A DNA stretch of 53,006 nucleotides from a virus. Of the stretch, positions 21,643 through 51,876 are shown in pieces. The first letter of the stretch is position 1. Every line of letters starts with the position of its first letter. The notes below the pieces were generated by a model. That model searched no databases and was not told the DNA's origin. It saw only the letters and a list, made by a program, of their open reading frames with translations. The stretch is from IMG/VR virus record IMGVR_UViG_3300046520_000239, positions 1 through 53,006 of that record; one strand, given 5' to 3'. The translations under genes were made by a program, and so were the position numbers.

Positions 21643-22410
21643 CTAGGATCGGCCGATGATGGTGCCCGCATTGTAGTGCTCGTTCTCTTTATAGAGAATG
21701 ATGCGTCCCGGTAACATGGTCGCTTGCCAGCCGGGCGGGAGCACGCCGAGCACTGATAAGATGACCTCCCGCGTCGTGGAGGGTTTCACAACGAATAGCG
21801 GAACGACGGCAGCCTCGAGCTCAGCATGAGCCTTTCTGGACCCTTTTGACTTCCCTTGGGCGCGCAGCGTGTAGGGAAGCTGCGCTCGAAGTGCTTCAAG
21901 TACTCGGGTCGCGGGGACGCCGCCGTCCGTGGCGATATCGACAGGATAGTCGAGATCGATCGGATACTGAGCATCGAACCCTTTTTCCTTGAGTTCGGTT
22001 TTGTCTCGGTTTCTGCCCGGGTCATTCGAGCCGAAGCCCGATGAATTCCACCACACGTCTCCGGACGTAGACTCGTAGTAGCGGATCAGCAGCTTTTCCA
22101 AGTCCATGGCCGTGAAAACGAAGACGCGGGCGGCCTTGAACTGCACATCGCTTGGCTTCAGGTTCAGCCGATGCTGGATGGTCCAGGAGTGCTTTCGCAG
22201 CCTGCCGCGAAGACCAGAGTCCGCGTCGGTCTTGCCGACGTAGACCACGTGCCCGTCGAGCAGGAGCTGATAGACCCCTTGCTCGTCCGCGACGTGCGCG
22301 GTGTGTTCGGGAGTCAACGAGGCGGACTCCATGGTTGCGAAGACACTGACGAGGCTGTTTAGCAGCGCCGTCGGCAGGTCGAATTCAAACTCACGGTAGC
22401 CTTCCGCCAA
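21643..22410 (-). CDS. GIY-YIG restriction endonuclease, Eco29kI-like
   Basis: 255 residues from TTG 22410, three bases after the methylase stop, with GGAG seven bases upstream; no ATG fits better. Residues about 45-72 read GVYQLLLDGHVVYVGKT...RGRLRKH, the GIY-YIG core with its Arg. The later segment WWNSSGFGSNDPGRNRD is typical of the Eco29kI branch of type II enzymes. Eco29kI itself cuts CCGCGG; specificity here cannot be read from sequence. The weak start and last position after Vsr and methylase would keep nuclease levels low. Confidence 0.82.
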   Translation of the reverse strand: MAEGYREFEFDLPTALLNSLVSVFATMESASLTPEHTAHVADEQGVYQLLLDGHVVYVGKTDADSGLRGRLRKHSWTIQHRLNLKPSDVQFKAARVFVFTAMDLEKLLIRYYESTSGDVWWNSSGFGSNDPGRNRDKTELKEKGFDAQYPIDLDYPVDIATDGGVPATRVLEALRAQLPYTLRAQGKSKGSRKAHAELEAAVVPLFVVKPSTTREVILSVLGVLPPGWQATMLPGRIILYKENEHYNAGTIIGRS

Positions 22411-22412
22411 TC

Positions 22413-23561
22413 TCAGGCTCCGATCTGAGAGGCGACGCTACGCCCGACAACTGTTGCCAGCTCGACGGGAACGGCGTTGCCGAGCTGACGCATGGTTTCG
22501 GTCCACGAGCCATGGAAGACGTAATCGTCGGGGAAGGTCTGCAGGCGGGCGGATTCCCTGACAGTGAAGTAGCGGACTGATCCATCAGGACGACGAAGCA
22601 TGTTCTCGCCGCCCGGAACACCGTGAACGCCAGCCTTCAAGGTCTTGGCGGGCTCATGCAACGGGCTGCCTGTATGACCGGGGTACGAGCGAGCACCTGG
22701 CTGGTAGCGGTGATTGTAGACGATGATGTCGGATGGGATCTTCTTCGTTGGATCCGGAAGACCGACCAGCGCATCGGCAACCGTGCGCCACGGCAGTTCG
22801 TCCGGCATCGGCATATTGCTGATGCGGTCGCTGGCAGCAATCTCCGGGCGATCCTTCTTAGCGACGCGATGGCGATCCCAATACTCTCCGTTGATCTGAT
22901 CCCATAGCAACGACTCGCGGGAATGCGTCTCGTGTGGGAAGTGAAATGCTTTGCCGAGATCTTCGCGGATCCCGATGAAGAACACCCGCTCGCGCTTCTG
23001 AGGTATGCCGTAGTTGGCGGCATTCAGGAGCTGCGTGACCACGCGGTAATTGAGTCCATCGCGGCTAGCGCTCGTGTGGTGCTGCTCGAGACGAGAAAGA
23101 TGATCCTGCCAGGATTCGTCCGTGCCTTTGACGATATCCGGATGCGACAACTGCAATCTGATGTATTCGAAATAATTGCGGAAAGAGGCACGGGTCAGGC
23201 CCTTGACGTTCTCGAAGATGAAAGCCTTCGGGCGCGCCTGACGGACGGCCCGGATTGCCTGTGGGAACATGTCGCGATGGTCGTCATAGGCCGCATGCTT
23301 GCCGCCCATTGAGAACGGCTGGCAGGGAGGCCCCCCAGAAACGAGGCCGATCTTGCCCTCGAACGCGGTGAAGTCGACGTCGCGCACATCGCCATGCTTG
23401 ACCTTCCAGCCCTTCACCGCCCCCATGCCGAGGCGCTGGTTTTCCTTGATGGTGTCGACACAGTAGTCGTCCCACTCGACCACGCTGGCAGGCCTGAAAC
23501 CTGCCGAGTGCAATCCAAGTCCTAGGCCACCGGCACCCGCAAATAACTCAATCGACCTCAT
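22413..23561 (-). CDS. DNA (cytosine-5) methyltransferase of the restriction cassette
   Basis: 382 residues from ATG 23561, overlapping the Vsr gene end by 14 bases. Complete m5C motif set: I (ELFAGAGGLGLGLHSAG), IV with catalytic Cys (GGPPCQPFS), VI (ENVKG), VIII (QKRERVFFIG), IX (RESARLQTFPDDY) and X (QLGNAVPV). It protects the phage and host from the GIY-YIG nuclease just downstream. Confidence 0.93.
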   Translation of the reverse strand: MRSIELFAGAGGLGLGLHSAGFRPASVVEWDDYCVDTIKENQRLGMGAVKGWKVKHGDVRDVDFTAFEGKIGLVSGGPPCQPFSMGGKHAAYDDHRDMFPQAIRAVRQARPKAFIFENVKGLTRASFRNYFEYIRLQLSHPDIVKGTDESWQDHLSRLEQHHTSASRDGLNYRVVTQLLNAANYGIPQKRERVFFIGIREDLGKAFHFPHETHSRESLLWDQINGEYWDRHRVAKKDRPEIAASDRISNMPMPDELPWRTVADALVGLPDPTKKIPSDIIVYNHRYQPGARSYPGHTGSPLHEPAKTLKAGVHGVPGGENMLRRPDGSVRYFTVRESARLQTFPDDYVFHGSWTETMRQLGNAVPVELATVVGRSVASQIGA

Positions 23562-23979
23562 CACAAAGGAACTTCCGTATGTTCTCGCCAAGTTGTGGCA
23601 GGTTCGCTTTCGTGACCTGACATTCCCAGGCGATCATTTCATCCCACCCCAGCGCCTTCAGATGTGCGCTGTTCTGAGCATCGCGTTCAGCGTTTCGTGC
23701 AAGCTTCGGTCCCCAGAAGTCAAGACGAGACTTCGGTAGGCGCGCGAGTTTGCACGACGAATCATCGTGGCGATGCCAAAAGCAACCGTGCACGAAAAGT
23801 ACTTTTTTTCGACTACCAAAAACGAGATCGGGGGTGCCAGGCACATCTTTTCGATGGAGCCGATACCGAAATCCCATACCGTGGACGAGACGTCGCACGA
23901 CAAGCTCCGGCTTCGAATCTTTGCTGCGGATCCGGGACATCCGCTCCGATCGAGATTTTGGATCTAGTGTGTCAGCCAT
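23548..23979 (-). CDS. vsr: Very short patch repair endonuclease (Vsr)
   Basis: 143 residues from ATG 23979 (MADTLDPKSRSERMSRI). Contains the family signature FRYRLHRKDVPGTPDLVF with the catalytic Asp, and VLFVHGCFWHRHD with zinc/active-site residues. Vsr nicks T:G mismatches that come from deamination of 5-methylcytosine and is often linked to m5C methylases. It is first in the V-M-R order and overlaps the methylase start. No clear ribosome site precedes the ATG. Confidence 0.9.
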   Translation of the reverse strand: MADTLDPKSRSERMSRIRSKDSKPELVVRRLVHGMGFRYRLHRKDVPGTPDLVFGSRKKVLFVHGCFWHRHDDSSCKLARLPKSRLDFWGPKLARNAERDAQNSAHLKALGWDEMIAWECQVTKANLPQLGENIRKFLCDEVD

Positions 23980-24037
23980 GGCTAGCGAAATGGTTGCAAA
24001 AGGATATTGTCGATACGCAGATAGGGCTAGAGGGGAC

Positions 24038-24280
24038 ATGAAGCAAAGACTGGAATCCAACGCACGTAAACTTGCGGCAGCCGCTAAGGCTCGTCCCGCT
24101 GAGACGCGGTGGTCGCTGATCGGGGCTGCGGCAGGTGCCGTCCTCGGCCTCGTAGTCGGTGGCGTAGGGATTGCGGCCATGGGTGGCGCAGCAGGCGTAC
24201 CAGCAGCCGTCATCCTTGCTTTAGTTGGCGGGGTGCTCGGCAACCGCTACTGTATCAGCAAGGACAGACCTGTTCTGTGA
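24038..24280 (+). CDS. Small glycine-zipper membrane protein
   Basis: 80 residues from ATG 24038 with AGGGGAC in front. A basic N-terminal 30 residues is followed by two Gly/Ala-rich hydrophobic helices (GAAAGAVLGLVVGGVGIAAMGG and PAAVILALVGGVLGN), a glycine-zipper-like pattern seen in pore-forming or membrane-packing proteins. The stop overlaps the GTG start of the next gene. Function unknown; an effector role in a small cassette is speculative. Confidence 0.65.
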   Translation: MKQRLESNARKLAAAAKARPAETRWSLIGAAAGAVLGLVVGGVGIAAMGGAAGVPAAVILALVGGVLGNRYCISKDRPVL

Positions 24281-30228: not shown

Positions 30229-30313
30229 GTAGATCCTCCGTCACTACCGGGATGCCCGGGAAACTGATTCTCAATGAAGAAGTAATGGGGGGAGCCAACC
30301 ATTCGCATATTCG

Positions 30314-30664: not shown

Positions 30665-30677
30665 CATCACTACGGGA
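30665..30677 (+). repeat. 13-bp word CATCACTACGGGA, copy 1
   Basis: Identical to 31000-31012; related words lie at 30719-30728 and 30238-30251. It sits 16 bases upstream of the ATG at 30649. Confidence 0.5.
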
Positions 30678-30910
30678 AGTGTCTCGATCGGCGTTGCAAG
30701 CGACAAAGTAGTTTCGTTCGTCACTACGCCAATAAGGGACCTGCGGAGCTGGTCGAGCGGAGCGGTAGCGTAGCGCCCACGAGAGACGAAAGTCTCCTCC
30801 ACCGGGAGCGGATTCACTCTCATGCCGAGGGACGAGGTATATTCTCTTCGTATTCCCCAGAGTTGACACCGCTCTAGCCCAGCACCAACCAGATGTCGTC
30901 AACGTGTTTT

Positions 30911-31055
30911 GGCTACACTTTGACCGCAGAACGGTATGTCTCAGCTACATTTTGTCCGTCTCGGCTGCATCCCGGCCGCCACTGAGCTTGGACATTCCGC
31001 ATCACTACGGGACGGAAATCTTTCTGCTCACTATCGGACAAAATGTAGCTGAGAC
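30911..31055. other. Putative iteron-type origin and rep operator
   Basis: A perfect 21-bp inverted repeat flanks a 76-bp spacer: left arm 30938-30958, right arm 31035-31055, each containing GCTACATTTTGTCCG. A degenerate direct copy GCTACACTTTGACCG begins at 30912, and a weaker one lies near 30963. Copies 32 and 20 bp apart fall close to whole helical turns, as for iterons. Rep_3 initiators of plasmids bind direct iterons and an inverted operator before their own gene, which is the arrangement here. The wider gene gap is 30650-31107. Confidence 0.65.
31000..31012 (+). repeat. 13-bp word CATCACTACGGGA, copy 2
   Basis: Lies inside the spacer of the 21-bp inverted repeat; exact match to 30665-30677. 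Confidence 0.5.
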
Positions 31056-31058
31056 CCC

Positions 31059-31090
31059 TTGCGCCAATCTCCGCCGGCACTGACCATTGT
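31059..31090 (+). promoter_or_regulatory. TTGCGC-type promoter-like element P5 (rep)
   Basis: Plus strand TTGCGC, 20 bases, CATTGT, with CCGGCAC in the spacer, 17 bases before the rep ATG and four bases after the right arm of the inverted repeat, so an initiator bound there would repress it. Confidence 0.55.
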
Positions 31091-31107
31091 TAGTACAGGA
31101 GGATGGC

Positions 31108-32481
31108 ATGACGAGATTTTTTCGAAGAAAGGGAGTGACAGGAGCAGAGCGCAAGCGGGTGAAAGGCGACATCCGCCTTGTCCTCGCTGCCGACCGCCCG
31201 GATCAGGATAAGGAGCCGCTCGCCGAGAAGCACTCAGCGCTTATCAACTCCGTTCGCTACTTCGGCGACCGAGAAGGTAACACCCCGGCGGAAGCGATGA
31301 CATCGACTTCGGCGGCCCTCTACGAATATCTTCTGGCGCGTGCGCTGCCCGAGTTGACATCGAAGGAAGAGCACCTGGTTTCGTTTCAAGACGCGATAGC
31401 GTTCCTGAAGATCGAGAAGTCATCCAGGTTGCGTGAATGCATCGACGATCTGACCAGGACGTGGGTCTCTTACCAGTTCATGGATCCTGAGGAGGGTAAG
31501 CACAGGATCGCCCGCCGCGTCCCGCTGCTACACATCGAAGAAGACGTCGGCACGTATTCCGGAGAGCGCTCCATTGCATACTCGATGCACCCGTCGGTCC
31601 GTCAGGTAATCCTTAGCGACGGCACATGGGCTGTAACCGAGATCGCCGCGTACCCTCTCTTCACCTCAAAATACACCTGGCTCCTTTACCCAAGGTTGGC
31701 CTTGATGGCCGGCCGCAAGCTTCGCCCAGACATGCGATGGACTCCGGAAGAACTAGCAGCCGAACTCGGCTGCAAGCCGAAGGGCGCCTTCAAGTTCTCA
31801 AATTTCGAATCCCGTGTGCTGCTTCCAGTGCTTGCCGACATCAAAGCGCACGTCCGCCGTTTCGGAGTCTCCTGCCAGTACGTCCGCGCCACAACACGTG
31901 GCCGCCCCGTTTCCCAGATCATCCTAACGGTGGGTGCTGCAGTTCGTGCTCCCGCGGAGTTCAAGAAGGCCGAAATGACGAAAGGTGATCGCACCCGTGT
32001 TCGCCGGATTGCGGCCGATGCTGCAGTCGATCTCACCACGCAGATGCCGGGCGAGGACATCCTGCGCCGCGGTGCCACCCGGCTCGGTAAGCCTGTCATC
32101 GTAATCGCATCAATGTGGACGGAAGCCTTCGGCGAGCCACTGATCATGGAAATGCTGGAGCGTGACGGTCTGAAGTCAGCTTTCGAAGAGTGGCTGCAGC
32201 AGCAAGAGGCGATGCAAAGCGATGCCGACGAGGAGGTCGATTTCGACGCCGCCAGTACGGTCGTTATGACCTTGGCCGAAGGCTACAATGTCGATGTCGC
32301 GTGTGATGCGATCGACGGCCACCTCTGGACTGGTTCGACTCCGAAGACGATCCGGATCGTCTGGACTGCCAACGGGGAGCAGCACCAGCATGACATCGAG
32401 ATCGCCCCAACCGAACGCGACCTGGCGCTACTCCTACGCGCCAACGAAGACATCATCGAAAACCTGGAGTACGCAGCATGA
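31108..32481 (+). CDS. Rep_3 (RepB-like) plasmid-type replication initiator
   Basis: 457 residues from ATG 31108, ribosome site AGGAGG. Residues about 60-260 follow the paired winged-helix layout of Rep_3 initiators, with the characteristic second-domain run TEIAAYPLFTSKYTWLLYPR...WTPEELAAELGC...NFESRVLLPVLADIKAH. The C-terminal ~180 residues are acidic and not typical of the family. Rep_3 proteins melt iteron origins of theta plasmids; iteron-like repeats lie just upstream. It heads an operon with a coupled downstream gene. Confidence 0.82.
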   Translation: MTRFFRRKGVTGAERKRVKGDIRLVLAADRPDQDKEPLAEKHSALINSVRYFGDREGNTPAEAMTSTSAALYEYLLARALPELTSKEEHLVSFQDAIAFLKIEKSSRLRECIDDLTRTWVSYQFMDPEEGKHRIARRVPLLHIEEDVGTYSGERSIAYSMHPSVRQVILSDGTWAVTEIAAYPLFTSKYTWLLYPRLALMAGRKLRPDMRWTPEELAAELGCKPKGAFKFSNFESRVLLPVLADIKAHVRRFGVSCQYVRATTRGRPVSQIILTVGAAVRAPAEFKKAEMTKGDRTRVRRIAADAAVDLTTQMPGEDILRRGATRLGKPVIVIASMWTEAFGEPLIMEMLERDGLKSAFEEWLQQQEAMQSDADEEVDFDAASTVVMTLAEGYNVDVACDAIDGHLWTGSTPKTIRIVWTANGEQHQHDIEIAPTERDLALLLRANEDIIENLEYAA

Positions 32482-33068
32482 GCACCAAGAACCTAGGCAA
32501 GAAGACCCTGAAAGCCAATTTGCTGGCGATGGCGGCCGAAGAAGCGATGCAAGAGCACGAGCATCGCGCCCGCTTTGTAAGCAAGATCGAATACATTCGC
32601 GGTCGACTAGAGGCCATGAAGGATCCGAGCGAGTTCGTCGGCAGCGGTCTCAACTTCGACTTCAGCGATGTCGTTCACATTGCAAAGCAGCATCTGCGAA
32701 TGCGTGCTGACGAATTCGAGGCGACCGTGTCGGTGCTCAATACGGCCGTTTCGCGCGTAGTCAACAATTGGCCTTCCGCCAAGGACACACGCGATCTCCC
32801 CAATTGGCTGCGGATGACAGAGGAGGAGCTGCGGCTCTCCTATTCGCTGCGGACACCTTACAATGCGGCTGATTTCATCGCCCATCACGGGGCGAAAGTT
32901 GGCTACACCGCCGCGCAGATTGCGAAAGCTAAGTCAGAGTTTCGGCCCCTCGAGTCCGCCCGGCGCGCGAAGCTATTCGACGAAGACGAGCAACGTCGGA
33001 TTGCAGAGTCCGCCCGGATCGCTTCTCGACCGAAAAGTGGATACTCGGTCACCGTCTACCAGGCCTAA
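32478..33068 (+). CDS. Hypothetical protein coupled to rep
   Basis: 196 residues, ATG overlapping the rep stop (ATGA). Basic helical N-terminus (MSTKNLGKKTLKANLLAMAA), helical throughout, with DFIAHHGAKVGYTAAQIAKAK in the C-terminal half. No family recognised; coupling suggests a replication accessory function. Confidence 0.72.
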   Translation: MSTKNLGKKTLKANLLAMAAEEAMQEHEHRARFVSKIEYIRGRLEAMKDPSEFVGSGLNFDFSDVVHIAKQHLRMRADEFEATVSVLNTAVSRVVNNWPSAKDTRDLPNWLRMTEEELRLSYSLRTPYNAADFIAHHGAKVGYTAAQIAKAKSEFRPLESARRAKLFDEDEQRRIAESARIASRPKSGYSVTVYQA

Positions 33069-33257: not shown

Positions 33258-33800
33258 ATGTCCTTCGTCCGCAAATTCTACACCGCTGACCTTCACCTCG
33301 GCCATAACGGCATTCTCAAGCACTGTCCGACCACACGCCCCTTCGACACCGTCGAGGAGATGGATCGCGCCATCGTCGAGCGCATCAACGAGCGCGTCGA
33401 GCCATACGATCTTCTCTATATCGTGGGCGACTTCGCGCTGTCCGGTGATGTCGAGTACGTCCGTCACCTTTTCCACTCGATCCACGCCCGCAAGGTACTG
33501 GTCCTGGGTAACCACGACTTGGATTCCAAAGGTGGCATCTCGAAGACGATCCGCGACCTTCCGTGGGACATCCCGCCGACGCATGCGCTCGAGACGACTG
33601 ACGAGGGTTGCCACATCTATCTGCACCATTACGGCTGCCGCGTATGGCCACGTCATCTTCGTGGCTCGTATCACCTGTTTGGCCACAGCCACGGGGGCCT
33701 GCCACCGCTCGGGCGCAGCCGCGACGTCGGTATCGACTGCACCGACACAGGTTTCGAGCCGCTGACGTTCTCAGCGATCAAGGAGTCCTTGGATGTCTGA
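33258..33800 (+). CDS. Calcineurin-like metallophosphoesterase
   Basis: 180 residues with all family blocks: DLHLGH (D-x-H), VGDFAL (GD), LGNHD (GNH[DE]), the HHYGC His and GHSHG (GH-x-H). These bind two metal ions. The short single-domain form is common in phages and may act on nucleotides or 2',3'-cyclic phosphates; the substrate is unknown. First full gene of the early operon; its end overlaps the next gene by eight bases. Confidence 0.88.
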   Translation: MSFVRKFYTADLHLGHNGILKHCPTTRPFDTVEEMDRAIVERINERVEPYDLLYIVGDFALSGDVEYVRHLFHSIHARKVLVLGNHDLDSKGGISKTIRDLPWDIPPTHALETTDEGCHIYLHHYGCRVWPRHLRGSYHLFGHSHGGLPPLGRSRDVGIDCTDTGFEPLTFSAIKESLDV

Positions 33801-34107
33801 TGACGAGTACGGCGTTCACGTCGCAAGTCACGGTAATGCAGTACCTGCTCGTGATCGCCTCCGGCTGCACGACTGTCAGGTGCCCGCGCTCGACAGCTTG
33901 CTCCGCGTCATGCGCGAGGAGCGCATCGACCGCGAAGTCCGCGTGGTCGGCATCTTCGCTCAAGCATCCGGGCGGACGAAGATCGATAAGGAATTCACCA
34001 CCATCGTCGATCCGCGCAGCGCCGCAGCTTTGTGTCACGAGATCACATTTGCTCGGTTGGAGCAGCGCTTTGAAGAAATTGTTCGTGAGGAGACTACTGA
34101 TGACTGA
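33793..34107 (+). CDS. Hypothetical protein
   Basis: 104 residues from ATG 33793, overlapping the metallophosphoesterase end. Arg/Glu-rich with REVRVVGIFAQASGRTKIDKEF and a helical C-terminus. Its end overlaps the next start. Function unknown. Confidence 0.68.
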   Translation: MSDDEYGVHVASHGNAVPARDRLRLHDCQVPALDSLLRVMREERIDREVRVVGIFAQASGRTKIDKEFTTIVDPRSAAALCHEITFARLEQRFEEIVREETTDD

Positions 34108-34489
34108 CCCCATCCGTCCTGATCTTTATCAGACTCTCCTGGCGAAACACGGTGAGCGCATGCCGGCCGAATCCGAAGTTTTCCTCCGCCCCGGCTGGGT
34201 ACCGCTCGTCGACCGCCTCCTGACCGACATCGCACGTGAATATCCTGACGCGCGCATCGTCGGCCTCGTCGGATGCGGTTGGCTACAAATCGACACATCG
34301 CTGCCGACGAACGGCGACCACGACTGGACCCGGCACGTCAAGTTCGACCGCTGGCTGCAGCGGTACGTCACCGAAAGTTTGTGGACCTGCGAGTGCTGCG
34401 GATCCCACCATGGCCGCGACCGTCTCAACCGCCGTGTCCTGTGTGAGGAATGCCAGAACACTAAGGAGAGCTCCGATGCCCATGCATGA
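34100..34489 (+). CDS. Zinc-binding tandem family member 1
   Basis: 129 residues from ATG 34100. Central GWVPLVDRLLTDIAREYPDA...VGCGWLQI corresponds to the family GW...KEKFG...L-R-I core, and the end carries C-E-C-C-G...LCEECQ, two Cys pairs that can hold a zinc ion. Four paralogues follow within 3.2 kb. The family is common in phage early regions and has no known function. Its end overlaps the next start. Confidence 0.75.
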   Translation: MTDPIRPDLYQTLLAKHGERMPAESEVFLRPGWVPLVDRLLTDIAREYPDARIVGLVGCGWLQIDTSLPTNGDHDWTRHVKFDRWLQRYVTESLWTCECCGSHHGRDRLNRRVLCEECQNTKESSDAHA

Positions 34490-34970
34490 CTTCCCCCGGA
34501 TCAAGAAAGACGACCTCGTAGCGGAGTTCCCGGGGGTCTTCGATACCGCCAGCTATACCGACGTTGGCGTGGGCTGGCTCGGCCTCGTGCGCGATTTCGT
34601 CAACGAGGCGCTGCAGCACGATCCGAGCCTGACTGTTCACGAAATCAAAGAAAAATGGGGCGGGATGAGGATCTGGTGCGACACCCCCGTTCTCCGCGCG
34701 CGCTTGGCTAAGGGCAAGGCGGAATTCAAATCCGGCATGACATGCGAAGTGTGCGGTGCCCCTGGGCACATCCGCCGTCCGCCGCCGGATCGAATGGCGT
34801 GGTGGCGCACTCTCTGCGACCAGCACGCCAGCGAGGATCAACGGTCGTGGGGCACACGGCAGCAAGGGCCGATGTACGGCTACATGCAGACTCGCGACGG
34901 CGCCTGGTACCGCTATGACGAGACTGAGGATGCGATGGTTCCGAGCGAGCCGCCAGCAAGGTGGAGATGA
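34476..34970 (+). CDS. Zinc-binding tandem family member 2
   Basis: 164 residues from ATG 34476 behind AAGGAGAG. Core GWLGLVRDFVNEAL...VHEIKEKWGGMRIWC, then TCEVCGAPG...LCDQH (C-x2-C...C-x2-H). After it comes the YMQTRDGAWYRYDE segment, shared in part with member 3. Unknown function. Confidence 0.8.
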   Translation: MPMHDFPRIKKDDLVAEFPGVFDTASYTDVGVGWLGLVRDFVNEALQHDPSLTVHEIKEKWGGMRIWCDTPVLRARLAKGKAEFKSGMTCEVCGAPGHIRRPPPDRMAWWRTLCDQHASEDQRSWGTRQQGPMYGYMQTRDGAWYRYDETEDAMVPSEPPARWR

Positions 34971-35449
34971 CGATGGAGACCTTCGCCGACCTGAAAGCAA
35001 AATATCCGCATCTCATCCGCCCGGGATTTCTTATTGAGTGCCATGAGGGATGGATCGGAATACTTGACCGCTATTTCGAGGTTGTTGACCGCGAACTCTC
35101 GCCGACAGAGACCTACGAGCTGCGACAGGTGAAGGAGAAACTCGGCGCGTTGAGGATCTACGATCACGGCGTGGTCACGTCCTCGAGTGTTCCTATCCGC
35201 AATGCCCACGCCCTCGCCGAAGCACGGTCTTTCTACACGTGCGAATACTGCGGCAAGCGCGGCGTGTGGAGCAATCGTCGCGGCTATCTGACTACGGTCT
35301 GCGAAGAACACGCCGTGCGCGATGGATACCGCGCAGAGCCCTACGCAGACAGCGACTACACGTATCGCGCGGCCGACGGCATCTGGCGACGCTACGATCC
35401 CGACTTAGACACTTTCCTCGAAGTGGAGGCACCAGATTGGTCGCGATGA
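34967..35449 (+). CDS. Zinc-binding tandem family member 3
   Basis: 160 residues from ATG 34967, overlapping the previous stop (ATGA); ATG 34973 with GGAG six bases upstream is the alternative. Core GWIGILDRYFEVVDRE...LRQVKEKLGALRIY and zinc set TCEYCGKRG...VCEEH. The C-terminal YTYRAADGIWRRYDPD parallels member 2, so these two are the closest pair. Confidence 0.8.
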   Translation: MTMETFADLKAKYPHLIRPGFLIECHEGWIGILDRYFEVVDRELSPTETYELRQVKEKLGALRIYDHGVVTSSSVPIRNAHALAEARSFYTCEYCGKRGVWSNRRGYLTTVCEEHAVRDGYRAEPYADSDYTYRAADGIWRRYDPDLDTFLEVEAPDWSR

Positions 35450-35967
35450 CAGCGCACGCACTTCGACGTCGCCGTCGCAGCCTCGGCGTTCCCCGCCGCG
35501 TCTGCATCGAATCCATGGATCGCGAATCCTTGCTCGTGGAAGCCATCCATCGTTGCGAGGACATCGAGCGAGCCATGGACATCGACTGGCAGCCGGACGA
35601 TGAGACCTGCCGCCGCGTCGGCTGGCACTTGGTCAAGAACACCGGAACCCTCTTCCATGTCGGAAGAAGGTTGCTCGAACATACGTTCCCGGGTGGCACC
35701 CTGCTGCCGCCTCGCGAGTTTCAGATGTGCCTGCACACGGAGCCGACTGACGAGGAAATGTTTGCGTCGCCGATGCTCCAGCCATGGAGCCTTCTCCTTT
35801 TCCAGTCCGGCAGTCAGCCGGCGTTCTGGAAGTTGGGCGGGACCATCTATCATCGGGATCACGACTGCGTGTGGGTGTGGACACGGCTGCTGTATCTGAA
35901 TCGGGACAAGCAGATGGCGAGAACGGATGAAGGCTGGTTGAAGCTTGGGAAGAGGATGAGCGCATGA
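35446..35967 (+). CDS. Hypothetical protein of the zinc-family operon
   Basis: 173 residues from ATG 35446, coupled to both neighbours by ATGA overlaps. Lacks the zinc set. Its RRVGWHLVKNTGTLFHVGRRLLEH part resembles the C-terminal domain of the next protein (EFGWHIVDT...). Function unknown; partial duplication within the operon is inferred. Confidence 0.7.
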   Translation: MTAHALRRRRRSLGVPRRVCIESMDRESLLVEAIHRCEDIERAMDIDWQPDDETCRRVGWHLVKNTGTLFHVGRRLLEHTFPGGTLLPPREFQMCLHTEPTDEEMFASPMLQPWSLLLFQSGSQPAFWKLGGTIYHRDHDCVWVWTRLLYLNRDKQMARTDEGWLKLGKRMSA

Positions 35968-37082
35968 TGAACGATGAACGGAGAGCGTGGCTGCGCGGCG
36001 CGTATCTCGACCGCATTGCCGAGGTTGCACAGCACTACGCTGCCGATCACAGCCACTTCGTGGATTCGGAATGGGAAGCGTTCATCGGCGACGAGTTTGA
36101 ATATCTGACGGAGTTGTCGGCTGACGATCATTCCTACCTGCGCGATCAGGCGGGGCTGGAGGCCTTCCGCCGCATCGTGTCGGCGCTGTCCGCAGCCCGG
36201 GAGGAAGCGTTCGGCAAACTGATCGTAGACAGCGCCGACGTGATCCATTCGGACGCGCGCTTCGCCTTGGACCTCGGCTGGATCAACCTGCTGCAGCACG
36301 CTGCCGACCGCGTCAGGACGTATCCGGAGGCTTGGGGCGCCCGCATCGTCGGCGCGAAGGAGAAGTTCGGCTGTTGCGTGCTCCATGTCGCCTGCGACTA
36401 CTCTGCGCGCGGCTGCCGATCCGAGGTCGAACGGCTCCGTGAAGAGGTGCGGCTGCGGTCGTTGGCCACGTGCGAAGTATGCGGGGCGAGCGGCCGGCTG
36501 CGGTTGTCGGGCTACGCGAAGACGGTCTGCGACCAGCATGCGCCTGTTCTGGGTGAGTTCCGGGAAGACGACGGAATGCATGCGGATCCGTGGGCATGGA
36601 ACGATGATGCTGACTACGTTCGCGACGTGCTCGACAAAGGCAGAGCACTGATCGCCGAAGCCGAGCACCGGAAGCGGCAGAGCTGCGACGAGTATCCTCC
36701 GGAAGCGGCAGAAGTCCTCAAAGACCTGATACCCGCGCGGCCGCGACCGACGCAGCACGTGATGGAAGAGAGAATCGACCCGATCCGCGCGACCGATGTC
36801 GGTCGCCGCGTCGATGACGACACCTGGAGCCGTACCGACCGCGAACAGGAACTGCTGGTCGAATTCGGATGGCATATCGTCGACACGGTTCAGGGCGCAT
36901 GCGTCAAAGTCGAATATCTCGACAAGTACATTGGTGACGAGATCGACGCTTGGCGCGAGTTCGCCGTGCAGCCGTTGACCGAATCCGACGAGGAATTTCT
37001 TCACGGATATGTCCGGGCACTCATCGACCATGAGTACGAACGCATAAGGGTCAAGCAGGAAGCCGAACGCAGCAACGATTGA
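35964..37082 (+). CDS. Zinc-binding tandem family member 4, three-part protein
   Basis: 372 residues. Residues about 1-95 have FIGDEFEYLTELSADDHSYL; 104-195 hold the family core (GWINLLQHAADRV...VGAKEKFGCCVLHV and TCEVCGASG...VCDQH); the last ~90 contain FGWHIVDT and IGDEIDAWREF...TESDEEFL, echoing both the N-terminal part and the preceding gene. It looks like a fusion of modules found separately next door. Function unknown. Confidence 0.75.
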   Translation: MMNDERRAWLRGAYLDRIAEVAQHYAADHSHFVDSEWEAFIGDEFEYLTELSADDHSYLRDQAGLEAFRRIVSALSAAREEAFGKLIVDSADVIHSDARFALDLGWINLLQHAADRVRTYPEAWGARIVGAKEKFGCCVLHVACDYSARGCRSEVERLREEVRLRSLATCEVCGASGRLRLSGYAKTVCDQHAPVLGEFREDDGMHADPWAWNDDADYVRDVLDKGRALIAEAEHRKRQSCDEYPPEAAEVLKDLIPARPRPTQHVMEERIDPIRATDVGRRVDDDTWSRTDREQELLVEFGWHIVDTVQGACVKVEYLDKYIGDEIDAWREFAVQPLTESDEEFLHGYVRALIDHEYERIRVKQEAERSND

Positions 37083-37112
37083 AGTCGGAAATAACCGACA
37101 AAGGAGTGGACA

Positions 37113-37619
37113 ATGTCGATTATTTCCGTCGCTCACGGCTGGCAGAACATTCTCGCCGAAGCCGTCGAAGAAGCCTCCAAGCTGCCTGAAGAGTGGCTGT
37201 TCGAGATCGTGTCGGCGGAGCGCGACGACGGTGCGTTGAAGCTGTCGGCGACGTACAACGCATTCGATGTCCCGTTAGACGATCATCTGCCGCCGGAACG
37301 GAAGCTGCCGCATCCGTGGCGATCCCTGCAGCGGATTCGGGAGAACGCGAGGGAGAAGTCGCTCAGGACTTGTGAGTGCTGCGGTCGGCCGGGCAAGCTA
37401 GTTGGTGCCGGCGAGACGGCGCGGGTGCGTTGCGTGCAGCATGGTTATGTCGTCGATGCCGGGGAATGGTCGGGGAATCCGGTTGGGTTTCTCTTCGAAT
37501 CCACCGAGGAAGCGATGTCGCATTTCCTTGCGGACTACGGCGACGGGCTGGACATGATGCAGGAGCTGCAGGCCGAGACCGCCAAGGATTCAGATGATGC
37601 GGCTACCAAGCCGCATTAA
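37113..37619 (+). CDS. Zinc-binding tandem family member 5
   Basis: 168 residues, AAAGGAG site. Family core begins at residue 8 (HGWQNILAEAVEEA...AERDDGALKL) and the zinc set is TCECCGRPG...RCVQH. The KEK-F-G block is degenerate (AERDDG). It ends the operon before the excisionase-like gene. Function unknown. Confidence 0.75.
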   Translation: MSIISVAHGWQNILAEAVEEASKLPEEWLFEIVSAERDDGALKLSATYNAFDVPLDDHLPPERKLPHPWRSLQRIRENAREKSLRTCECCGRPGKLVGAGETARVRCVQHGYVVDAGEWSGNPVGFLFESTEEAMSHFLADYGDGLDMMQELQAETAKDSDDAATKPH

Positions 37620-37772: not shown

Positions 37773-38294
37773 GTGAAGTTGATTGAAGCCGTTCCCCATG
37801 ATGCCATCGATGATCTCATGGGAGATTTTGAAGCGACGGTCGAGCGGCAGCGTCACGAGTATGTCGAGGCGATGGAGTGCATCGGGATCCTGCGCGGTAT
37901 TCAGTCACTCGAACCTGTGCACGCGCCCGCGGTGCCTGATCATCTCGACGATGAACTCCTGACAATAGCCGCCGCCAGTAAGCTTCCTGAACTTGGCGGC
38001 ATCGTCAGTCCGAAGCGCTTGTATGGCGAGGTCGCTGCCGGCCGCCTTCGACTTGCCGCCAACAGCGGCCCCGGAAAATTTTTCGTAACACGTAAACTCA
38101 TCAAGGAATGGATAGAATGGCGAGACCAAGAAAGCCGCCCCATCTCATCTGGATCAAGCCCAAGCTCACCGCGGACGGGAAATTACGGGCGAACGGATAC
38201 TGGGCGATCGCAGACGGAGAAAAGCGCATTGGCACGGGATACGGCCTTGAGTTTCGTGCAGAAGCTGAGGCCGCAAGGCTCCAATACGAGGTAG
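37773..38294 (+). CDS. Excisionase-like DNA-binding protein
   Basis: 173 residues from GTG 37773 with TGGAGGACTCC. Residues about 65-115 (AAASKLPELGGIVSPKRLYGEVAAGRLRLAANSGPGKFFVTRKLIKEWIEW) have the winged-helix pattern of excisionase/MerR-type proteins. The last ~55 residues overlap the integrase gene in another frame and are low-complexity, so they may be unimportant. Position immediately before int supports control of excision. Confidence 0.62.
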   Translation: MKLIEAVPHDAIDDLMGDFEATVERQRHEYVEAMECIGILRGIQSLEPVHAPAVPDHLDDELLTIAAASKLPELGGIVSPKRLYGEVAAGRLRLAANSGPGKFFVTRKLIKEWIEWRDQESRPISSGSSPSSPRTGNYGRTDTGRSQTEKSALARDTALSFVQKLRPQGSNTR

Positions 38295-39364
38295 ATCAGC
38301 TCGCGTCCAAGTCGGTCTCCGAGACGATCAACGAGAGGGGCAAAGGCCCGCGCGACGTGCTCGTGGTCGATCTGATCCGTTTCTACTTGGAGCGCCATCA
38401 GGCGAAGATTGAGGCAAAGTCCAAGGACAAGCTGCGCGACTACCTCAACATGGTCGAGCGATTCATTCGCTTCTGGGATGGGAAGACTGTCCACGAAATC
38501 AACGAGCGGACGATCAATGAATACCAGAAGAAGGCTCGGCCAGGAAAGCCGCTCGCCGACACAACAGTCGGCCGCGAGATCCCGGAGCTACGCTCCATGA
38601 TCAATTTCGGCATCAGGAAAGGGAAATGCGAGCTGCGGGGCCATATCATCGATTGGGAAATCCCGCCGCCGCCGCCGCCGCGCGAAGCATACTACACCCG
38701 CGATGAGGTGGCCAAGCTACTGCGCGGGGCTTGGTTTAAAAGGAATATGGGCATGGGCAGGGAGGGCGTCGGCATTCGCACGTCTCGCCACATCGCTCGA
38801 TTCATCCTGATTGCCGTTTGGACTGGCACCCGTTCCGAAAAGATCGAGCAGGCCTCGTACGTGGACCACGACGACAGGCCGTGGATGGATTTGGAAGGCG
38901 GGATTTTCTATCGTGGCGGCGTGGCAAACAAGTCGCCCACCAACAAGCGTGCGGACCCCGTTCGCATCCCGGACGAGATCATCAACCATCTGCGTCGGTG
39001 GCGCGATAAGAATCCAAGCACCGACAACGTGATCGCCTATCATGGCAAACCCGGGTCGACCAGGGGCGCGTTCCGTCGCCTAAAGCTTGACGTGCTGCCA
39101 CCGGATCGTGCCAAGAAGTGCAACCGGCATACATTTAAGCACACCTGCGCATCGTGGCTAATGGGCCAGCGCGTTCCGCTTGATATCATCGGTGCCTACG
39201 TCTCCACCACTCCTGAGGTGGTGAAGAAACACTACGGGCATTTCGCCCCAGACTTCCACTCGGAGGTCAACGACGCAATGAAGACAGCCAAGCAGTTGCG
39301 GTTGGAGAAGAATGTCGAGGAGCGCAAGAGGGAGAAGGTAGAAGCACAGAAGAAGGCTGCATGA
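38117..39364 (+). CDS. int: Tyrosine recombinase integrase
   Basis: 415 residues; ATG 38117 is preferred over 38108 because AAGGA lies nine bases before it. Residues about 75-175 are the SAM-like core-binding domain (DLIRFYLERHQAK...). Catalytic parts: Arg in WTGTRSEKIE, HTFKHT where the usual H-x-x-R second Arg is Lys, and Tyr in KKHYGHFAPD. The HTFKHT form is a known variant, so it is probably active. The attP with a tRNA-Thr fragment lies just downstream. Confidence 0.93.
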   Translation: MARPRKPPHLIWIKPKLTADGKLRANGYWAIADGEKRIGTGYGLEFRAEAEAARLQYEVDQLASKSVSETINERGKGPRDVLVVDLIRFYLERHQAKIEAKSKDKLRDYLNMVERFIRFWDGKTVHEINERTINEYQKKARPGKPLADTTVGREIPELRSMINFGIRKGKCELRGHIIDWEIPPPPPPREAYYTRDEVAKLLRGAWFKRNMGMGREGVGIRTSRHIARFILIAVWTGTRSEKIEQASYVDHDDRPWMDLEGGIFYRGGVANKSPTNKRADPVRIPDEIINHLRRWRDKNPSTDNVIAYHGKPGSTRGAFRRLKLDVLPPDRAKKCNRHTFKHTCASWLMGQRVPLDIIGAYVSTTPEVVKKHYGHFAPDFHSEVNDAMKTAKQLRLEKNVEERKREKVEAQKKAA

Positions 39365-39479: not shown

Positions 39480-39524
39480 TTCGTAATGATGGGGTCGCAG
39501 GTTCGAGTCCTGCAAGCGGCACCA
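39480..39524 (+). tRNA. 3' half of tRNA-Thr(CGU), att core; not a complete gene
   Basis: Reads from the anticodon loop TTCGTAA (anticodon CGT) through stem TGATG, T-arm GCAGG-TTCGAGT-CCTGC, acceptor AAGCGGC, discriminator A and CCA. The 5' half is absent, so it is only the recombination core. Confidence 0.85.
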
Positions 39525-39840: not shown

Positions 39841-40605
39841 TCAGAATGCGAAACCCGTCTGGTATGATCCCTTGTCGAGCCTCACGACACCGAGAAGTGT
39901 CCATTGCTTCGGGCGCTTGGCCAGTGTTCCGAGGATGAAGACGATGCCCTTGTTGACGTACTCGCCTTCGTACTTCTCCTTAAGCATTTGAAGCGTGCGA
40001 TCCTCTCCGTAGGCCTGTCGCCACTTCCAGAACGCAGTATGCGTCTCCCAATCCCCGCACTGATGAGTGTGGCGCACTCCTGACTGGTCCAAATATGTGA
40101 AGGCGAGCATATGCGGCGTCGGCTCGAACGGCTCGACTTCCTGATCCAACATATTCGCTTGTCGGGCAGACCTGTCGTAGGCTGCAGCCTCCTGCTGTAT
40201 CGCAGTCGCAGGTTTGGGACGATGAATGAAACGCACCTGCTCCGGTCGGATTGCTGTTAGGGAACGACCCAGCTCAGCAGCCGCAACCATTGACGGCGTG
40301 ATCAGCGGCTCGAGCAGGAGCCGCTTCTCGTCGGTTGCACACTTACCGAGATTCTTGATGGTGCCCTGCAATACCTTGCAGCTTTCGGCGCGCTTGTCTT
40401 GAGAGTTAGGTACGTAGTCGAATGCGACCTTGTCCCACCGATTGAACGTTTCGCCCCCGTGGCGGTAGCGGATAGGATAGAGCCGCCTCCACTGGCCGTC
40501 ATCAGTGATGCCTGCACAGCAGACAGTCTCAGAGTGCCCGGAGCTCGGGCGCGGCAGTGCCTTTACCAGGATTGTGACTTGGCAGTTTTTCCGGGTTGCG
40601 CTCAT
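39841..40605 (-). CDS. Hypothetical protein paired with DUF488, possible dual OB-fold
   Basis: 254 residues from ATG 40605 (MSATRKNCQVTILVKALPRPS); a TTG at 40623 is in frame. The repeated beta pattern (ETVCCAGITDDGQWRRLYPIRYR; WDKVAFDYVPN) fits the OB-fold-like partners often encoded next to DUF488 proteins. It overlaps the DUF488 gene end by 77 bases. The molecular role is unknown. Confidence 0.6.
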   Translation of the reverse strand: MSATRKNCQVTILVKALPRPSSGHSETVCCAGITDDGQWRRLYPIRYRHGGETFNRWDKVAFDYVPNSQDKRAESCKVLQGTIKNLGKCATDEKRLLLEPLITPSMVAAAELGRSLTAIRPEQVRFIHRPKPATAIQQEAAAYDRSARQANMLDQEVEPFEPTPHMLAFTYLDQSGVRHTHQCGDWETHTAFWKWRQAYGEDRTLQMLKEKYEGEYVNKGIVFILGTLAKRPKQWTLLGVVRLDKGSYQTGFAF

Positions 40606-41056
40606 ACCTGTCTTTCTTGTCAACGAATAAGTCGAAAGAAATCAAGTCATAATCTTTAAGTTGAGTCGCCACAATCTGTCGGTGACAAGTGCTCGGATCA
40701 CGTTCGTAGCACATCAAGCAGGTCATCTCCTCCTTGGCGATAGCTGCGACATTGCGAACTGCCTGCTGCGCTCCTTCCGTGGCAAGGTGCTCACCGAAAA
40801 CTTTGCGGAACGTCTCGAAGTCGCCGGCGCGCGCTGCTTCTCGGCCCGGCTTAGGATCACCAAGATCTTTGGCGTGGATGTAGCGGATCCCATGCGTCTG
40901 CAGTCGAGCTGCAAGACCGTTCTTGGAGAAACCCTTCTTCCGAGACACGGTTACTGCTCGAACATCAACAAGCACCTGCACCCCGGCGATCTCAAGAGTT
41001 CTGACGAAGTCGTCTATCGTCGAGCCTTCGTAGCCGATGGTCATCAAGCTCGTCAT
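40529..41056 (-). CDS. DUF488-family protein
   Basis: 175 residues from ATG 41056 (MTSLMTIGYEG), AAAGGA site six bases upstream. Recognisable by MTIGYEGSTIDDFVRTL, VDVRAVTVSRKKGFSK, and the MCYERDPSTCHRQIVA motif with two Cys and His. The family is of unknown function. It is in an operon with the 254-residue gene, divergent from the next plus-strand gene. Confidence 0.82.
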   Translation of the reverse strand: MTSLMTIGYEGSTIDDFVRTLEIAGVQVLVDVRAVTVSRKKGFSKNGLAARLQTHGIRYIHAKDLGDPKPGREAARAGDFETFRKVFGEHLATEGAQQAVRNVAAIAKEEMTCLMCYERDPSTCHRQIVATQLKDYDLISFDLFVDKKDRYERNPEKLPSHNPGKGTAAPELRAL

Positions 41057-41150
41057 CTGCATTCCTTTCGTCCACGAAGCATGGAGCGCGTAGTTATCCT
41101 TGACGGGACTTGCCCGAGAGTTAACTTTCCAAGACCTTTACGGTGAAGAT

Positions 41151-50382: not shown

Positions 50383-50460
50383 GAGGCCGAAGGCTTGCGA
50401 AAATGACGTGTGGAGTGTCATCTGGACGCAATTTAAGAGCGCTGAGTCGCGGGGGTGGGA

Positions 50461-51876
50461 ATGGTTGAGGAAGTTGTAGCGGCCGAGGCCAAGCAGCCCC
50501 GATATGAGCGGTATATCGAAGAGATCACCGAGGATATTACGAACACCGTCGACGAGTTCGGGTGCCAGCCAATTCTGTTCGTAGGCTCCGGGCTGACGAA
50601 GCGTTACATGGATGCTCCGAACTGGGAGGAACTGCTAGCCCACCTCGCCGATAAGTGCTCCGTCATCGACAAAGGGTTGGGGTTCTACAAGCAGTCACTT
50701 GGATCTCCGATCAAGATCGGCCAAGAATTCGCGAGACTTTACCATGAATGGGCATGGGGAGCTGGCAACAACGAGTTCCCAAAGGATCTTTTCGAAGACG
50801 ACGTTCACGCCCAGTCGTACATTAAGTACAAGATCTCCGAGTATCTGAACGCCCTTATGCCTCAGAACACTGCCGGGCTGAAGGCCGATTATCTGCCGGA
50901 AATAGCGGTGCTTTCGAAGATCAAGCCCCATGCCATTATAACGACGAACTACGACCAGATGCTCGAGCTGATCTTCCCTGATCACGAGCCGATCATCGGA
51001 CAGCAGATACTCAAGGGACAGCAGGTATGCGTCGGCGAGATCTACAAGATCCACGGATGCGTTACCGACCACGACAGCATAGTCTTCACATCGGACGACT
51101 ATGAGGAGTTCTTGAAACGGAAGAAGTTCCTCAGCGCGAAGTTGCTGACGTTCTTCAATGAGCACCCGTTGGTATTCGTCGGCTACAATGCGGGCGACCC
51201 GAATATCCGCGCGATCCTGTCCGATATTGACGAAGCGCTGCCGGAGAAGGGTGGCATCATACCGAACGTCTTCATCCTTCAGTGGGACGGCACCCTCACA
51301 GAGGATAGCTGGCCGCAGCGCGAGAAGGTTATTCCCACTGAGGACGATCGCAGTGTCCGAGTGAAGATGATAGTCGCGAACGATTTCTCATGGGTTTTCG
51401 ACGCTTTCGCGGCCAATCCCGCCCTGGCGCACGTCAACACCCGCGTCCTCCGCTCCTTGATTGCAAGATCCTACGAGCTCGTGCGTCACGACATCCCTAA
51501 GATGACCGTAGAGGCCGACTTCAAGATGCTCAACGAGGCAGTAGAAAACTCAGAAACCTTCGCCAAGCTCTTCGGCATCGCCAATATCCACGACTACAGC
51601 GCCGCTGGAGCGCATCACTGCTACAGCCTGACCCAGGTCGGTAAAGCCCTCGGCCACAAGGGATGGCATTCCGCAGATCACCTGATCACCCGGGTTGCCC
51701 ACGAGAAGGGCATCAACATCAAGAAGTCAGACAATCGGTATCATCGAGCGGATAAGGTCAACAACACCGTGTTTCACAAATATTCTCAGGATGTGGTCGA
51801 TTTGTTGGCGAAGGTTCAGAACAACGAAGAATACGCGGTCGATCTCGGTATTCCGGAAATTAAGAAGGCGGTCTGA
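50461..51876 (+). CDS. SIR2-domain protein with C-terminal DNA-binding-like part
   Basis: 471 residues from ATG 50461; GTG 50455 is possible. SIR2 motifs: FVGSGLTKR (G42-S43-G44), ITTNYDQML (N163, D165), KIHG (His198), and VGYNAGDPNIR. These bind NAD and supply the catalytic His, so NAD cleavage is likely. The C-terminal ~90 residues (LTQVGKALGHKGWHSADHLITRVAHEKGI...) resemble phage DNA-binding C-terminal domains. It is on the opposite strand from its late-gene neighbours and looks less GC-rich, as expected for a moron. Superinfection defence is inferred. Confidence 0.82.
   Translation: MVEEVVAAEAKQPRYERYIEEITEDITNTVDEFGCQPILFVGSGLTKRYMDAPNWEELLAHLADKCSVIDKGLGFYKQSLGSPIKIGQEFARLYHEWAWGAGNNEFPKDLFEDDVHAQSYIKYKISEYLNALMPQNTAGLKADYLPEIAVLSKIKPHAIITTNYDQMLELIFPDHEPIIGQQILKGQQVCVGEIYKIHGCVTDHDSIVFTSDDYEEFLKRKKFLSAKLLTFFNEHPLVFVGYNAGDPNIRAILSDIDEALPEKGGIIPNVFILQWDGTLTEDSWPQREKVIPTEDDRSVRVKMIVANDFSWVFDAFAANPALAHVNTRVLRSLIARSYELVRHDIPKMTVEADFKMLNEAVENSETFAKLFGIANIHDYSAAGAHHCYSLTQVGKALGHKGWHSADHLITRVAHEKGINIKKSDNRYHRADKVNNTVFHKYSQDVVDLLAKVQNNEEYAVDLGIPEIKKAV

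Follow-up and report, generated by a model that had tools for sequence, protein, structure and literature searches.

Organization of the locus and its genomic context

The locus under study consists of a rep gene (31108..32481, plus strand), coding for a replication initiator of 457 aa, and of iteron-like repeats located immediately upstream. It lies within a 53,006-base virus record (hereafter, the window), the first and last 127 bases of which are identical, so that the genome, of 52,879 bp, is either circular or circularly permuted. The window is the genome of an integrating, temperate siphophage of Rhizobiaceae, a family of soil bacteria. Its left arm carries, on the minus strand, the genes for the terminase small and large subunits, portal, head protease-like protein, major head protein, tail assembly protein and tape measure.

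The stop codon of rep is overlapped by an ORF with no assigned function (32478..33068, plus strand), which is also found after rep, at 45–55% identity, in L020, L021, L024, G001, G003 and G311. Next comes a gene for a calcineurin-like phosphoesterase (33258..33800, plus strand; Pfam Metallophos, phrog_547), which almost every relative, G223 and G384 among them, has close to rep. The order rep, unassigned gene, phosphoesterase, early genes and int is conserved in prophages, forming an operon directed towards int, and in the case of G311 and G159 the syntenic prophages reside within contigs of 358 kb and 860 kb, respectively. Neither a helicase, primase or polymerase nor any other initiator was recognised among the scanned large ORFs of the window.

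Several further genes are recorded here as side observations. A restriction-modification cassette at 21643–24243 comprises an Eco29kI-like endonuclease, a C5 cytosine methylase and a Vsr endonuclease, and shares 75–88% identity with its counterpart in prophage G003. A SIR2-domain protein encoded amid the late genes (50455–51876) matches the candidate defence family PDC-S25 (E 2e-80) and is 92% identical to a protein of prophage G311. The gene pair directly past attP (39841–41062) matches the candidate defence pair PDC-M19A/PDC-M19B, one member having a DUF488 domain. Meanwhile the region 33608–37619 encodes tandem, apparently paralogous small proteins with a CxxC...CxxH-like motif, which lack family matches and cross-match one another in relatives.

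The Rep protein

Translation of rep is likely to start at ATG 31108, since a Shine-Dalgarno sequence, AGGAGG, is present at 31097–31102; the alternative TTG at 31087 is disfavoured on the same grounds. The deduced protein comprises two winged helices and a C-terminal extension of about 170 residues, the latter being absent from plasmid Rep_3 proteins. Its own matches to Pfam Rep3_C (E 0.001; 19.8 bits versus a cut-off of 21.1) and Rep3_N (E 0.005; 17.6 versus 22.4 bits) both fall below the curated cut-offs. Rep3_N is nevertheless matched by 14 of the 15 Rep homologues (best E 4e-14), while Rep3_C and phrog_4402, a “replication initiation protein” family, are matched by five each (best E 4e-17 and 4e-21, respectively). 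Nine homologues match phrog_2172 (best E 3e-21), the function of which is not known in PHROGs; given this similarity, phrog_2172 is probably a Rep_3-type initiator family as well. Related phage proteins are thus already catalogued under PHROGs 2172 and 4402.

A search of PDB sequences with the Rep family profile returned R6K pi as the sole match (E 0.0016). The AlphaFold2 model of the window Rep has a mean pLDDT of 60, with the winged-helix core at about 65–87, that is, at moderate confidence. In Foldseek, the first 42 PDB matches, all with a probability of 1.00 although with modest TM-scores, are plasmid initiators (F RepE, R6K pi and other Rep–iteron complexes), among them the RepE–operator structure 2z9o, and there was no confident match in the PDB outside plasmid Rep structures. 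Hence the double winged-helix fold of RepE and pi, together with the Pfam matches of the homologues, places the predicted product of 31108–32481 in the Rep_3 superfamily; weak in the protein's own sequence, the assignment is real and firm by family and fold, in agreement with the preliminary description.

Architecture of the putative origin

Upstream of rep lies a perfect 21-bp inverted repeat, the arms of which (30938–30958 and 31035–31055) are separated by 76 nt; the next longest exact inverted repeat, found by scanning the whole genome in 463 segments of 228 bp, is only 12 bp long. The left arm, iteron 2 (30938..30958, plus strand; GTCTCAGCTACATTTTGTCCG), aligns with the iterons of relatives. 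Iteron 1 (30906..30926, plus strand; GTTTTGGCTACACTTTGACCG) is identical to it at 16 of 21 positions and lies exactly 32 bp upstream, while the degenerate iteron 3 (30958..30978, plus strand; GTCTCGGCTGCATCCCGGCCG) is identical at 15 of 21 and lies 20 bp downstream. These start-to-start spacings are close to three and two helical turns; both the perfect inverted repeat and the helically spaced degenerate copies described earlier hold up. When a 16-mer core was searched with up to three mismatches, three sites were found in the 53 kb against 0.17 expected, all of them at the origin (iteron 1, iteron 2 and the inverted copy). Only two direct iterons of the window are well conserved, which is few for a classic array.

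The inverted iteron (31035..31055, minus strand) is a perfect copy of iteron 2, ends 3 bp before the putative −35 element of rep and is a candidate autoregulatory operator or loop partner. The predicted rep promoter (31059..31087, plus strand) consists of TTGCGC (31059–31064), a 17-bp spacer containing CCGCCGGC, and GACCAT (31082–31087). Most homologues have the same pattern ahead of the rep start codon, TTG(C/T)NN followed by 17 bp with CCGCC(G/A) and a −10-like hexamer ending near CAT, and we infer that this conserved arrangement is the rep promoter. The CCGCC(G/A) spacer motif, kept even where Rep identity is only about 25%, could be a binding site for a host factor.

An A+T-richer block at 30830..30854 (40% GC versus about 59% overall) is a candidate DNA unwinding element. 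All eight origins compared have a low-GC block 71–88 bp upstream of iteron 1, the one in the window being modest. The 450 bp preceding rep contained no DnaA box (up to one mismatch to TTATCCACA) in any of eight origins; such boxes are common, though not universal, in iteron origins. The Rfam scan of the origin returned no family at a meaningful score, and GC skew was set aside for locating the origin, being confounded by gene-strand bias.

Two other repeated sequences occur nearby. The repeat TCACTACGGGA, considered as a second iteron family, is no commoner than chance at two mismatches; since its exact copies cluster upstream of leftward genes, it is treated as a side observation. The motif TCACTACG (minus strand, CGTAGTGA) occurs before leftward genes at 30667, 30721 and 31002, with a variant at 30241, and copies are likewise grouped ahead of these genes in G311, G159, G003, G001, L020, L021 and L024; it is a possible operator or promoter element.

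Conservation of the putative origin and co-variation with Rep

Relatives were gathered by searches with TerL and then with an alignment of Rep, a single-sequence Rep scan of viral contigs having returned none. A pair of direct repeats exactly 32 bp apart is present in nine origins, namely those of the window, L019, L020, L021, L022, L023, L025, L026 and L027; as L019, L020 and L023 are near-copies (97–99% identical in Rep), the eight relatives correspond to about six independent origins. The direct repeats of L026 are perfect 22-mers, and L019, L020 and L023 have a further copy at +20 which is better than iteron 3 of the window. Conservation of the inverted copy is weaker. The window has it in perfect form, L027 has 11 bp of it at the corresponding position, L026 shows a decayed version, and L019, L020 and L023 lack it.

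The repeats fall into two classes, A (AGCTACATTTTGtCCG) and B (TGTCGGAACTTGTCAT). Class A, with GTCTCAGCTACATTTTGTCCG-like iterons, includes the window, L019, L020, L023, L026 and L027, whereas class B (GTCTATGTCGGAACTTGTCAT) includes L021, L022 and L025. In the Rep tree, the class A and class B proteins form separate groups with support values of 98/95 and 100/100. A fixed spacing combined with a repeat sequence that changes together with Rep is what would be predicted for an initiator–iteron pair, and the direct repeats beside rep, helically phased and co-varying with the protein, have the properties of an iteron-type origin. In more divergent homologues, rep is preceded by different repeats, for instance an inverted repeat of 18 bp in L028 and copies of CTTGTCACTTAGACG in L029.

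Rep and packaging genes do not follow each other. The TerL of G002 is 92% identical to that of the window, yet its Rep is only about 40% identical and its origin belongs to class B, whereas G311, with a TerL of 41% identity, has a Rep of about 55% and a class A origin; the modules are therefore mosaic. A survey of 398 Rhizobiaceae genomes found Rep homologues in 25, in at least several cases within an identifiable prophage. A tblastn search of 50,697 phage records with five divergent Rep queries gave no homologue, and hence no named integrating phage with an initiator of the window type can be cited. Distant homologues (about 24–28% identity) are found on plasmids; no plasmid record has a close Rep or TerL.

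Integration functions

As the preliminary description had stated, the phage has both a tyrosine integrase and a tRNA-derived attP. The integrase gene (38108..39364, plus strand; phrog_1, E 9e-32) encodes a protein 64% identical to the integrase of the integrated prophage G003 and 33% identical to Int of Rhizobium phage 16-3. Its start is overlapped by an ORF with no assigned function and no family match (37773..38294, plus strand), which is co-conserved with int in G003, G001, G384 and L022 and, by its position, is a candidate excisionase gene. The attP core (39482..39524, plus strand) is an exact 43-nt match to the 3' end of complete host tRNA-Thr(CGT) genes, present in five of 61 Rhizobiaceae genomes. 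A longer, 47-nt attP pattern had no exact match in 151 genomes because its first bases are phage-specific. A tyrosine integrase accompanied by an attP matching the 3' end of a host tRNA gene is characteristic of an integrating temperate phage. As attP is intact, the record represents the unintegrated form, which is equally expected of virion DNA, replicating phage DNA or a plasmid prophage.

Integration itself can be seen in the related prophage G003, which spans about 52.8 kb between 47-bp direct att repeats, one of them within a complete tRNA-Pro(CGG) gene, and carries both the 64% identical integrase and a Rep of 52% identity inside these repeats. Two additional tRNA-related sequences were noted. 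An extra copy of the 3' end of tRNA-Thr(CGT), not part of a complete tRNA (L071; G047:C3:3392-3434), suggests another integrated element at this att site, and its flanks have no match to window proteins. The L015 locus (G001) has tandem tRNA-like T-arm sequences on the minus strand at about 19.4–19.5 kb of the locus, with no tRNA called by ARAGORN.

Comparison with known systems

The locus resembles the Rep_3 iteron plasmids (F RepE, R6K pi, pPS10 RepA) in its double winged-helix initiator, iterons adjoining rep, inverted copy at the rep promoter and nearby, though modest, A+T-rich block. These plasmids, however, have a contiguous array with approximately one spacing, whereas the window has two good direct iterons and spacings of 32 and 20 bp, lacks par genes and belongs to an integrating phage. 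An iteron-binding initiator in a chromosomally integrating phage is also found in lambda (ori/O) and in the lambdoid O proteins. Lambda O is not known as a Rep_3 protein. The lambda origin lies inside the O gene (PMC6022878).

SGI1 (Salmonella Genomic Island 1) is likewise a chromosomal element which excises and can replicate extrachromosomally from a Rep_3 RepA and iteron oriV (PMC7826253), but this island is mobilizable, depends on a helper plasmid for its induction and has oriV downstream of repA, whereas in the window, a phage, the origin precedes rep. Iteron origins are also known in phage-inducible islands (PMC6092414). P1-type phage-plasmids and RepA mycobacteriophages share with the window a phage genome with a plasmid-type initiator, yet their lysogens are plasmids with partition genes, and in the RepA mycobacteriophages parABS replaces the integration cassette (PMC7157519, PMC10879196); the window, on the contrary, has an integrase and attP and no par. 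Phage 16-3, the integrase of which is related, integrates in tRNA-Pro(CGG) according to the passage of PMC8631192 citing Semsey 2002, the same site as that used by G003; no homologue of the window-type Rep was found in phage 16-3, which is part of the collection searched by tblastn.

Proposed mode of replication

We consider it probable (roughly 0.8) that the window is an integrating phage which replicates, after excision or during lytic growth, from the iteron/Rep_3 origin. In the lysogen, the genome would reside in tRNA-Thr(CGT) with rep presumably silent; this presumption follows from SGI1, for which expression of the Rep_3 initiator with a chromosomal origin appeared severely harmful, a hypothesis of the authors of that study (PMC7826253). 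After infection or excision, Rep would bind the direct iterons (30906–30978), melt the adjoining A+T-richer stretch and recruit the host helicase and polymerase, so that the circle would replicate from there in the manner of an iteron plasmid. The inverted iteron by the rep promoter could serve in autorepression by Rep or in origin pairing by looping. No lysogeny repressor was identified, which counts against this explanation, as do the low number of good direct iterons, the missing DnaA box and the mildness of the A+T-richer block in the window.

Of the two ideas put forward in the preliminary description, plasmid-type replication is strongly supported by the family, fold and conserved origin architecture, whereas a phage-plasmid ancestor is not required by the data and finds no support in them: the window was found to have neither a ParA-type ATPase nor ParB_N, in accordance with the lack of partition genes noted earlier, no close relative is recorded as a plasmid, and prophages related to the window and bearing its module are integrated in chromosomes or large contigs. 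Such ancestry is possible, without positive support. A related explanation is that the phage leads a dual lifestyle, in which the Rep/iteron origin would also maintain a low-copy plasmid prophage and integration would be a second or back-up option. Indeed, the window combines virion genes (TerL, portal, capsid, tape measure) with a plasmid-type initiator and origin, the record is circular with an intact attP, the restriction-modification cassette could stabilise an episome, and distant Rep homologues are found on plasmids. This nonetheless seems unlikely: besides the missing ParA and ParB and the lack of plasmid records with a close Rep or TerL, the relatives bearing the module occur as integrated prophages, flanked by att repeats in G003 and lying within large contigs in G311 and G159, and a circular attP record is just as well accounted for by virion or replicating phage DNA.

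It is less probable still that the protein is a Rep_3-derived regulator, that the repeats are only its operators and that replication starts elsewhere. Rep_3 proteins also repress their own genes, the RepE–operator complex is among the fold matches, the inverted copy abuts the rep promoter and the direct array is short. On the other hand, no other replication gene was recognised among the scanned large ORFs, the homologues match the replication initiation family phrog_4402, and the direct pair with its 32-bp spacing is conserved, unlike the inverted copy on the promoter side. The same loss or decay of the inverted arm in relatives, where the direct copies persist, makes it very improbable that the inverted repeat is a hairpin (a single-strand origin, attenuator or RNA element) rather than a set of protein-binding iterons; despite the perfect complementarity over 21 bp, the loop would measure 76 nt and no meaningful Rfam family is present in the origin.

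Precedents exist for an iteron initiator in an integrating phage (lambda O), for a Rep_3 replicon in an integrating island (SGI1) and for a plasmid-type initiator in a phage (P1 RepA); no description of a Rep_3/iteron replication module with class switching in an integrating siphophage family was found in open-licence PMC text. The coexistence of nearly the same packaging genes, such as those of G002 and the window, with different Rep/iteron classes might perhaps allow this prophage family to be regarded as a set of replication “incompatibility types”. Integrated iterons could then titrate or handcuff an incoming Rep of the same class, resulting in replication-based superinfection exclusion and selection for iteron switching, a rather doubtful, albeit conceivable, extension of the proposed replication from the iteron/Rep_3 origin. 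On that proposal, a plasmid-type initiator/origin cassette would serve as the replication module of an integrating phage family, the natural iteron–Rep specificity classes of which offer a compact test bed for initiator–iteron co-evolution. The module of the window would likewise be suited to studying how a prophage silences a chromosomal iteron origin, and may be a source of new Rhizobium vectors.
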